Positions 22,946-34,423 of a stretch of DNA of 49,067 nt are shown piece after piece. Numbering within the stretch: position 1 is the stretch's first letter; each line of letters starts with the position of its first letter. Made by a program: the position numbers and the translations under genes. The notes beneath the pieces were generated by a model that worked only from the letters and a program-made list of their open reading frames with translations, was not told where the DNA came from and did not search any database. Origin of the DNA: Planctomycetota bacterium (lineage in GTDB: Bacteria; Planctomycetota; Phycisphaerae; Phycisphaerales; UBA1924); the NCBI GenBank assembly GCA_003696725.1, contig RFGI01000016.1, forward strand, positions 1-49,067, written 5' to 3'.

Positions 22946-23227
22946 ATGGCACGCTCCCTCAAGAAAGGCCCGTTCGTGGATGAGAAGCTCTACCGCAAGG
23001 TGGAGACGCTCAGCCAGCAGAACAAGCGCGCCCCCATCCGGACGTGGGCCCGCCGGTGCACCATCGTGCCTGAGTTCGTCGGGCACACCTTCCAGGTCCA
23101 CAACGGGCGGGCGTTCCTGGAGGTCTTCGTCACCGAGGACATGGTGGGGCACAAGCTGGGCGAGTTCGCCCCCACGCGCCTGTTCCGCGGCCACACCAAC
23201 AAGAAGGAAGGGATCAAGGGCCGGTGA
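22946..23227 (+). CDS. rpsS: 30S ribosomal protein S19
   Basis: [15 protein letters not shown]...[23 protein letters not shown]. Confidence 0.98.
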
Positions 23228-23266
23228 CGCGAGGCCCGACCCGACGCCCGAGAGGTCAGACCCGAC

Positions 23267-23812
23267 GTGAAGATCAACCCTGACAGACTCAACGCCCGCA
23301 TCGCCCAGGCCGGCGCCGGCGCCGAGGATCTGGCCCGCGCCATGGCTCGGCCGGGGCTCTCGGCCGATGACGCGGCCCGCGCGATCGCCAACTGGCGCGT
23401 CGGCCGCAACCACCCGCGCGCCAAGGCCGCCGACGTCCGCGCCCTGGCCGAGGCGCTGTCCTGCCGGCCGGCGGACATCGCCCGTTTCGAGACCAAGGCC
23501 CGGTTCGTCCGGTCCAGCGCCCGCAAGGCGCGGCTGATGGCGGACCTGATCCGTGGGCGGCGCGTCGACGACGCGGTCACGCTCCTGGAGTTCAACCACC
23601 GCCGGGCCGCGACGATGGTGGTCAAGGCCCTCAAGACCGCGATCGCCGACGCGGAGCAGTCCGAGGCGGACATCGGCCGGCTGGTGGTCGCCGAATCGCG
23701 GGTCGACGGCGGGCCCATCATCAAGAGGTTCCGGCCCAAGGATCGCGGCCGGGCCCACCCCATCCGCAAGCGCACCAGCCACATCGTCGTCGGCGTCGAG
23801 GAGGCCGCCTGA
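23267..23812 (+). CDS. rplV: 50S ribosomal protein L22 with ~75-aa N-terminal HTH-like extension
   Basis: The L22 core starts near ETKARFVRSSARKARLMADLIRG. It is preceded by MKINPDRLNARIAQAGAGAEDLARAMARPGLSADDAARAIANWRVGRNHPRAKAADVRALAEALSCRPADIARF. Confidence 0.96.
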   Translation: MKINPDRLNARIAQAGAGAEDLARAMARPGLSADDAARAIANWRVGRNHPRAKAADVRALAEALSCRPADIARFETKARFVRSSARKARLMADLIRGRRVDDAVTLLEFNHRRAATMVVKALKTAIADAEQSEADIGRLVVAESRVDGGPIIKRFRPKDRGRAHPIRKRTSHIVVGVEEAA

Positions 23813-24510
23813 TGGGACAGAAGACGCACCCGTACGGCTTCCGCGTGGGGATCACCGAGCCCCACAAGAGCCGCTGGTACGCGCCCAAGGCGCTGTACGG
23901 CGAGCTGCTGGTGGAGGACTACCGCATCCGCGAGTTCGTGGACAAGAGGCTCAACCGCACGCCCCCGTTCGCCGCGGTCAGCGACATCCAGATCGAGCGG
24001 ACCCGCGAGGAGCTGAAGGTCATCGTGTCGACGGCCCGGCCGGGGCTCGTGATCGGGCCCAAGGGCGCCGAGGTCGACCGCCTGACGGAGGAGCTGCAGT
24101 ACCTCACGGGCCGGAAGGTCTCGATCGCGATCAACGAGATCAAGAACCCGGACATCACGGCCCAGCTCGTCGCCGAGGGCATCGCCGAGCAGCTCAAGAA
24201 GCGGGCGTCGTTCCGACGGATTGTGAAGATGCGGGCCGAGGCGGCCATGCAGAACGGCGCCCAGGGCGTGCGCATCCTGATCGCGGGGCGTCTGGGCGGC
24301 GCGGAGATGAGCCGCCGGCTGGACACCCGGCTGGGGCGCCTGCCGCTGTCGACGCTGCAGGCCAACATCGACTACGGCTTCGCGACCTCGTTCACGACCT
24401 ACGGCGCCCTGGGCGTCAAGGTCTGGGTCTTCCGCGGGATGTTCGGCGAGAACACCGACCCCGACCCGGCGCCGGGCGGGCGCCGGCCGCGGGCCCGGGG
24501 CCGGCGGTGA
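23812..24510 (+). CDS. rpsC: 30S ribosomal protein S3
   Basis: MGQKTHPYGFRVGI...GARGVRI-like GAQGVRILIAGRLGGAEMSR; start overlaps the rplV stop (TGATG). Confidence 0.98.
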   Translation: MGQKTHPYGFRVGITEPHKSRWYAPKALYGELLVEDYRIREFVDKRLNRTPPFAAVSDIQIERTREELKVIVSTARPGLVIGPKGAEVDRLTEELQYLTGRKVSIAINEIKNPDITAQLVAEGIAEQLKKRASFRRIVKMRAEAAMQNGAQGVRILIAGRLGGAEMSRRLDTRLGRLPLSTLQANIDYGFATSFTTYGALGVKVWVFRGMFGENTDPDPAPGGRRPRARGRR

Positions 24511-28598: not shown

Positions 28599-29213
28599 AT
28601 GGCAGAGCTGCTGGACGAAAAAACAAACCTCGAGAGCACGACCGTCGGCGTGTTCCGCACCGCCGCGACCGTCAAGGGCGGTCGCCGGTTCTCGTTCTCC
28701 TCGCTGGTCGTGGCGGGCAACCGCCGGGGCGAGGTCGGGATCGGGTACGGCAAGGCCAACCAGGTCCCGCCGGCGATCGAGAAGGCCCAGAAAGAGGCCA
28801 AGAAGTCTCTCCGCCCGGTCATGCTCCAGGGCGGGACCATCCCGCACGAGGTGGTGGGGCGTTTCGCCGCGTCGCGGGTCAAGCTCGCGCCGGCGTCGCC
28901 GGGCACAGGCGTGATCGCCGGCGCGGCCGTCCGCGCCGTCCTGGAGATGGCCGGCGTGACCGACTGCCTGACGAAGTGCTACGGCTCGACGAACAAACAG
29001 AACGTCGTCAAGGCGACGCTCGACGCCCTCTCCAGGCTGCGCACCAAGGCGGAGATCGAGTCGCTCCGCGGCGTGGAGGTCGGGATGACGGAGGTCGACG
29101 AGCGGCTGGCGCGGGCCGACACACTCGCCCCCGCCGAGCGAGAGCCGGGCCAAGCCGACGCCGGGCCGGGCGCCGACGAATCCTCTGAACCCACGGGAGC
29201 GCCGCAGCCATGA
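28599..29213 (+). CDS. rpsE: 30S ribosomal protein S5 with acidic C-terminal tail
   Basis: VKGGRRFSFSSLVVAGNRRGEVGIGYGKANQVPPAIEKA...AGAAVRAVLEMAGVTDCLTKCYGSTN. Confidence 0.97.
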   Translation: MAELLDEKTNLESTTVGVFRTAATVKGGRRFSFSSLVVAGNRRGEVGIGYGKANQVPPAIEKAQKEAKKSLRPVMLQGGTIPHEVVGRFAASRVKLAPASPGTGVIAGAAVRAVLEMAGVTDCLTKCYGSTNKQNVVKATLDALSRLRTKAEIESLRGVEVGMTEVDERLARADTLAPAEREPGQADAGPGADESSEPTGAPQP

Positions 29214-29827
29214 TGATCCACGAGATCACCGCCCAGGTCGGGCGCCATCGTCAGCGCAAGCGCGTCGGTCGCGGCCGCGCCAGCGGGCACGGCAAGACCT
29301 CCGGCCGAGGGCACAAAGGGGCCCAGAGCCGATCGGGGAACTCCACACGCCCGCAGTTCGAGGGCGGCTCCCTGCCGTACTTCCGCCGGATCCCGGTCCG
29401 CGGGTTTTCGAACGTCAAGTTCCGCACGCGGTTCTGGACGGTCAACCTGGGAGACGTGCTGGCGCACCCGTCGTTCGCCAAGGGCGGCGCCGTCACCAAG
29501 GACGCCCTGATCGACGCGGGTCTGATCCGCGACCACAGCCGACCCCTGAAGATCCTGGGCGATCTCAAGAACCACGCGGGCCAGGAGATCGCCGAGGTCT
29601 CCGTCGCCCTGGAGGTCGCCGCCGAACGCGTCACGAAGTCGGCCCGGGCGAAGATCGAGGCCGCCGGCGGGTCCGTCACCGAGACAGGCACCAGGCGGGA
29701 TCGGGTGCGCGGGATCGACCGGGCCTCGGGCGATCCGACGCCCAAGAACCTGACCAAGAAGCTCAAGCGCTCCAAGCCGCGTGTCGCCGCCGACGCCGGC
29801 GGGAAGAAGAAGAAAAAGAAGAAGTGA
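29210..29827 (+). CDS. rplO: 50S ribosomal protein L15 with poly-Lys C-terminus
   Basis: RKRVGRGRASGHGKTSGRGHKGAQSRSG...FEGGSLPYFRRIPVRGFSN; ends GGKKKKKKK. Confidence 0.96.
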   Translation: MMIHEITAQVGRHRQRKRVGRGRASGHGKTSGRGHKGAQSRSGNSTRPQFEGGSLPYFRRIPVRGFSNVKFRTRFWTVNLGDVLAHPSFAKGGAVTKDALIDAGLIRDHSRPLKILGDLKNHAGQEIAEVSVALEVAAERVTKSARAKIEAAGGSVTETGTRRDRVRGIDRASGDPTPKNLTKKLKRSKPRVAADAGGKKKKKKK

Positions 29828-33844: not shown

Positions 33845-34423
33845 ATGCGGCATCGCAAGGCCGGCTACAAACTGGGGCGCACGACCGCGCACCGCACCTC
33901 GACGCTGCGCAACCTCGCGGCGGGGCTCTTCGAGCACGGGCAGATCACCACCACGATCCCCCGCGCCAAGGCCGTCCAGCCATTCGCCGAGCGGCTGATC
34001 ACGCTCGCCAAGCGCGGGGACCTGCACGCCCGGCGGCTGGCGGCGGCCAGGCTCAACGACCGCATCATGGCCTCCGACGAGGACGCCCTGGAGCGCAACC
34101 GCTACGGCGAGATCCGGAAAGGTCCCAAGCTCATCAAGCACCTCTTCGAAGAGATCGGCCCGCGCTTCAAGGACCGCCCCGGGGGCTACACCCGCATCGT
34201 CAAACTCGACAAGCGCCGGCTCGGCGACGGCGGGGCGCTGTGCGTCCTGCAGCTGGTGGGCGACGAGGAGGGCCCCGAGATCGGCGGGCGCGTGAGCGTC
34301 CGGCGGCGGATCGCCGACGGCCGGACCGAGTTCGCCGCCAAGCTCCGCAAGGCGGGCAAGGCCGCGAGCACCGCCCCGCCCGAGGCCGCCGCCGAACCTT
34401 CGGACGACGCCGCCGCCGGCTGA
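33845..34423 (+). CDS. rplQ: 50S ribosomal protein L17 with C-terminal extension
   Basis: MRHRKAGYKLGRTTAHRTSTLRNLAAGLFEHGQITTTIPRAKAVQPFAERLITLAKRG. Confidence 0.98.
   Translation: MRHRKAGYKLGRTTAHRTSTLRNLAAGLFEHGQITTTIPRAKAVQPFAERLITLAKRGDLHARRLAAARLNDRIMASDEDALERNRYGEIRKGPKLIKHLFEEIGPRFKDRPGGYTRIVKLDKRRLGDGGALCVLQLVGDEEGPEIGGRVSVRRRIADGRTEFAAKLRKAGKAASTAPPEAAAEPSDDAAAG

Follow-up and report, generated by a model that had tools for sequence, protein, structure and literature searches.

Ribosomal protein uL22 is universal and lines the tunnel of the nascent peptide, and the helix-turn-helix (HTH) is a module normally used for DNA binding. Enlarged forms of L22 are already known. In spinach chloroplasts, uL22c carries lineage-specific extensions that are mostly extended or poorly resolved (PMC5071890), and the NCBIfam family NF008917 describes a fusion of L22 with an unknown domain, in which L22 stands at the start of the profile and the extra part is hence C-terminal. 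Neither addition has been reported as an HTH. An XRE-type HTH that binds rRNA is known from EDF1/MBF1, whose cro/C1-type HTH sits between rRNA helices h16 and h33 (PMC7486125). EDF1/MBF1 is, however, a separate factor on the small (40S) subunit of eukaryotes and archaea and not a ribosomal-protein fusion.

Here we describe an L22 of Phycisphaerae that begins with an HTH domain, encoded in a stretch of 49,067 nucleotides (hereafter the window; all features given below lie on the + strand). It shares with the chloroplast protein a lineage-specific enlargement of L22, and with EDF1/MBF1 an XRE-type HTH, for which we propose rRNA binding as well. The remarkable part is the HTH nature of the added domain. 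A search of the open-access literature, with subscription papers largely outside its reach, returned no paper on an HTH-L22 fusion or on L22 in Phycisphaerae.

The rplV gene and its operon

The rplV gene (uL22) is an open frame of 181 codons at 23267-23812, encoding 181 amino acids. It lies between rpsS (S19, 22946..23227), from which it is separated by a 39-nt spacer, and rpsC (S3, 23812..24510), whose start shares one base with the rplV stop; the S10 operon of the window has its usual order. The preliminary description gave the gene an ATG start, which has to be corrected to the GTG at 23267. A Shine-Dalgarno-like GAGAGG is seen in the sequence 11 nt ahead of this GTG (23250..23255), and such a motif precedes rplV in only about half of the homologues. 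Elsewhere in the window, at 28599-29827, the gene for L15 (from 29210) directly follows that for S5 (28599-29213) with no intervening L30 gene, and a bL17-like frame at 33845-34423 has 192 amino acids where 120-130 are usual, so that it too may carry an extension.

The protein agrees with bacterial uL22 (PF00237, TIGR01044) in its core (residues 77-177), in its place in the S10 operon and in a core phylogeny close to the species tree. The canonical core, with the tunnel hairpin and the stop codon, occupies 23492..23812; it matches PF00237 over residues 77-177 (E 6e-33, 113.6 bits against a curated cut-off of 28) and TIGR01044 (110.2 bits, cut-off 73.65), and its best match among the L22 chains of 70S structures in the PDB has a TMt of 0.89. 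The difference lies in about 75 additional N-terminal residues, which form a separate folded domain (codons 1-75, 23267..23491). A search of the genome found the rplV of the window as its single L22 gene and no second one, so the fused protein is presumed to be incorporated into the 50S subunit.

Production of a usual short L22 from an internal start was considered and rejected. The in-frame start codons are GTG1, ATG26 (within the HTH), and ATG91 and later ones; codons 27-90 hold no ATG, GTG or TTG, as the preliminary description had suspected in finding no obvious internal start. The gene of the window does not, therefore, encode the usual short L22. Nor is an internal start conserved, as an ATG by the core boundary occurs in just 17 of 60 homologues.

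The extension as a translated and selected sequence

The addition of about 75 residues, in frame ahead of a normal L22 core, is present as first described, with the peptide then quoted beginning at residue 8. Because the DNA of the window has 71% G+C, an open frame is weak evidence on its own, and conservation was therefore examined. The codon-position G+C of the extension (0.77/0.59/0.92), together with its dN/dS in close pairs (about 0.13-0.19, higher than in the core yet far below 1), indicates that it is translated and under selection. In one such pair (L045/L048), dN is 0.18 in the extension and 0.05 in the core. Operons with the domain have a median of 288 nt between the rpsS stop and the L22 core, those without it 75 nt, and residues N42, W43 and P50 are invariant in two sets of homologues (50/50 and 37/37). 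Conservation, dN/dS and operon spacing rule out a chance open frame, and the fusion of L22 with an HTH, as well as the fold of the latter, is well supported.

Predicted fold of the domain

AlphaFold2 models the domain with a pLDDT of 92.2 when taken alone, and the full-length fused protein (with 50 homologues) with a pLDDT of 95.4 and a pTM of 0.86, the domain itself reaching about 96. The HTH fold anticipated in the preliminary description is obtained throughout (pLDDT 92-96). In the model, the domain passes via a short turn into strand 1 of L22; no linker lies in between, and the junction falls exactly where the normal protein begins. Helix 1 comprises residues 5-15 (23279..23311), helix 2 residues 19-26 (23321..23344) and helix 4 residues 54-63 (23426..23455). 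Helix 3, at the position of a recognition helix as judged from model and conservation, comprises residues 33-44 (23363..23398) and contains the invariant N42-W43 (23390..23395) of the homologue alignments. It is followed by a basic loop of conserved character, RVGRNHPRAK (23396..23425), which leads to helix 4 and includes the invariant P50 (23414-23416).

The XRE/Cro-type layout proposed earlier agrees with the AlphaFold2, Foldseek and Pfam results alike. The top Foldseek matches in the PDB are mostly XRE/lambda-repressor-type structures, among them C.AhdI, P22 c2, 434 Cro, DdrO, CapH and C.Csp231I, as well as the XRE-type domains of HEPD and HppE; the TM-score on the query reaches 0.68, and since no match has an E-value below 0.001 the assignment relies on their agreement. 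In Pfam, HTH_31 is matched by 24 of 37 homologues and HTH_3 by 13 at E<=0.1; two homologues pass the 27-bit cut-off of HTH_31 (PF13560), namely L039 with 34.3 and L057 with 27.7 bits, and the window copy has marginal matches only (HTH_26, E 0.025). A lambda-repressor/XRE-type helical bundle is well supported by the model.

Compared with XRE/Cro-C1 domains (PF13560 HTH_31, PF01381 HTH_3; for example P22 c2, 434 Cro, C.AhdI and C.Csp231I), the fold and the basic charge are alike, and the W-x6-P signature after helix 3 is held in common, the N-W-x6-P spacing following the XRE pattern (QWERSETEP in P22 c2). The net charge is +5 in the window copy and +5 in the median of the homologues (pI about 10), against +5 in P22 c2 and +4 in the 434 repressor. 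Conserved basic residues lie to either side of N42, which, aligned by hand, we take to correspond to Q33, a recognition-helix residue of the 434 repressor. The L22 domain differs in a longer connection between helices 2 and 3 and a longer helix 3, in its fusion to a ribosomal protein, and in that no dimerisation part is seen. The turn between helices 2 and 3 has 6 residues in the model and helix 3 has 12, and the tight short turn of an HTH is absent. In a hand comparison, leucine 22 and W43 are 21 residues apart, against 14 in both P22 c2 and the 434 repressor, so that the connection is about 7 residues longer; its length also differs from member to member. The canonical DNA-reading geometry is hence not kept, which speaks against an ordinary operator-binding repressor.

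These features bear on the idea that the domain is an autoregulator, with free excess L22 repressing the S10 operon through the binding of its HTH to operator DNA or leader mRNA. Ribosomal-protein operons are often autoregulated, for example by L4 in Escherichia coli, and both the XRE-type fold and a basic charge close to that of true repressors would suit such a role. Against these points stand the stretched and variable connection between helices 2 and 3, the lack of a visible dimerisation region, and a spacer before rplV that ranges from 4 to 123 nt across homologues and would hardly offer a common site in the mRNA. We regard autoregulation as quite unlikely, and a structural role on rRNA looks more likely.

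Occurrence and phylogeny

Of 100 genomes searched in the window's own family, 96 gave an L22 match, and each of these carries the extension, its alignment starting at query residue 1-11. Across the class, the 77-residue extension piece finds a match at E<=0.01 in 144 of 396 genomes, a count that includes a few weak matches that are not L22. Twenty class loci from families f5, f12, f17, f19, f22, f23, f25 and f26 are all L22 fusions of about 180 residues, and every member fetched is an L22 fusion within an S10 operon. Searches of the class and the phylum for a stand-alone homologue of the domain gave nothing beyond weak generic matches. With profile A2, run on 395 genomes across the phylum, the strong matches (E<1e-18) all fall within the same class; three weak ones outside it (E 2e-5 to 8e-4) are not L22, and the L22 of those genomes is without the domain. 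In the other Planctomycetota sampled, L22 has the usual start or short tails and no extension. The named relatives of the whole protein, among the best 80 listed, are Phycisphaerales/Phycisphaeraceae metagenome-assembled genomes (MAGs). Three loci titled Leptolyngbya, Cyanobacteria and Vicinamibacteraceae (L161, L198 and L221) encode an L22 fused in the Phycisphaerales manner; these MAGs have probably been mislabelled.

A tree built from 14 S10-operon proteins puts the domain at two separate places. The first is a clade of f12, f17, f19, f22, f23, f25 and f26 (support 1.00); the second consists of f1 and f5, in a clade that also holds the domain-free f4 (the grouping of f4 with f5 is weakly supported, at 0.46). 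Families f2, f3, f4, f7, f8, f10, f13, f15, f16, f18 and f21 are without the domain. The expectation that similar extensions occur in other Phycisphaerae thus holds for further families and fails for the class as a whole, as the domain is confined to two clades. The tree of L22 cores agrees broadly with that of the species, and the cores of both domain clades were inherited vertically. Homology between the extensions of the two groups is clear (49% identity and E 9e-14 for the G266 copy, for example), and their tree shows the same two groups. This split is compatible with transfer between the clades, with an ancestral domain and several losses, and with two related fusions. The L22 tunnel hairpin of the first clade (L084-L101) has 3 residues more than that of the window (RVDGGPIIKRF), and these lie where the hairpin tip makes up the constriction of the tunnel; an example is L095:947-1495 (RVDDAGVRLGTKRW).

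A rival view is that the domain is a passive relic, a well-folding and harmless fusion retained without any specific partner. Many relatives live without it, and the extension evolves faster than the core, as such a view would have it. A relic is nevertheless improbable, given the low dN/dS in close pairs, the invariance of N42, W43 and P50, and the presence of the domain in every genome of its own family with an L22 match.

A possible anchor on the ribosome

The most likely role of the domain, we infer, is that of a structural anchor on rRNA or at the exit site, a reading in which our confidence is about evenly balanced. The HTH domain would be a permanent structural component of the large subunit, placed on the solvent side beside the tunnel exit. 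With the basic surface of the former HTH (K7, R28, position 41, N42 and the loop 44-53 with P50), it would hold a fixed site on either 23S rRNA or an adjacent ribosomal protein. uL22 might thereby gain a second foothold, of use in early 50S assembly and in shaping the exit rim. uL22 is among the earliest proteins in 50S assembly, together with uL24 and uL29, and touches domain I of 23S rRNA (PMC11723945).

Several observations lead to this anchor. Every copy retrieved is part of an L22 gene within the S10 operon, and the class and phylum searches showed no stand-alone homologue beyond weak generic matches; the full-length model is confident, with only a short turn from the domain into strand 1 of L22; and the domain is basic, with N42 invariant in both clades, as would fit an unchanging ligand such as rRNA. 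N42 could also be a structural residue instead of a contact. EDF1/MBF1 offers a precedent for an XRE-type HTH that binds rRNA. From these lines we infer incorporation into the ribosome, rRNA binding and a role in assembly.

The anchor is weakened by relatives of the same class that live without the domain, and by the 23S rRNA genes, which were located by a conserved-motif search: no length variant of 23S rRNA separates the genomes with the domain from those without (8 versus 12 genomes). The region at E. coli 1513-1533 was rejected as a correlate, being missing in f1, f5 and also the domain-free f4, and kept in some domain-bearing genomes. As to the region itself, about 15-19 nt are absent in f1, f5, f4 and one f19 genome (L311-L315, L317, L324) and present in the other relatives compared. 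Another 23S rRNA gene, L328 (G077), has about 463 nt inserted at E. coli 1165-1182, possibly an intervening sequence or intron.

The domain might instead be a docking platform at the exit site, binding deformylase, aminopeptidase, SRP, a chaperone or a membrane factor and so tuning the fate of emerging chains. uL22 adjoins the tunnel exit, and peptide deformylase docks on L22 by its C-terminal helix (PMC8712518); XRE-type folds fused to enzymes exist in the solved structures of HEPD and HppE. Yet the C-terminal helix of peptide deformylase shows no difference between genomes that have the extension and those that lack it (a comparison that leaves aside G060, and in which G266 has a second, shorter copy), bL32 is present in 27 of 28 genomes, and the conserved face of the domain is basic. 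We consider docking unlikely. Finally, in the two Phycisphaerae branches a transcription-factor-type HTH could have become a fixed element of the ribosome, with the protein also regulating its own S10 operon away from the ribosome by binding nucleic acid; we give this dual role very little weight.

Significance

The retention of an HTH on L22 across whole bacterial families means that a core ribosomal protein can acquire a domain of the gene-regulator type. If the dual role were true, ribosome assembly and gene control would be coupled via one fused protein. The HTH-L22 fusion may serve as a clade marker, and it presents a clear target for cryo-EM in a Planctomycetota ribosome.
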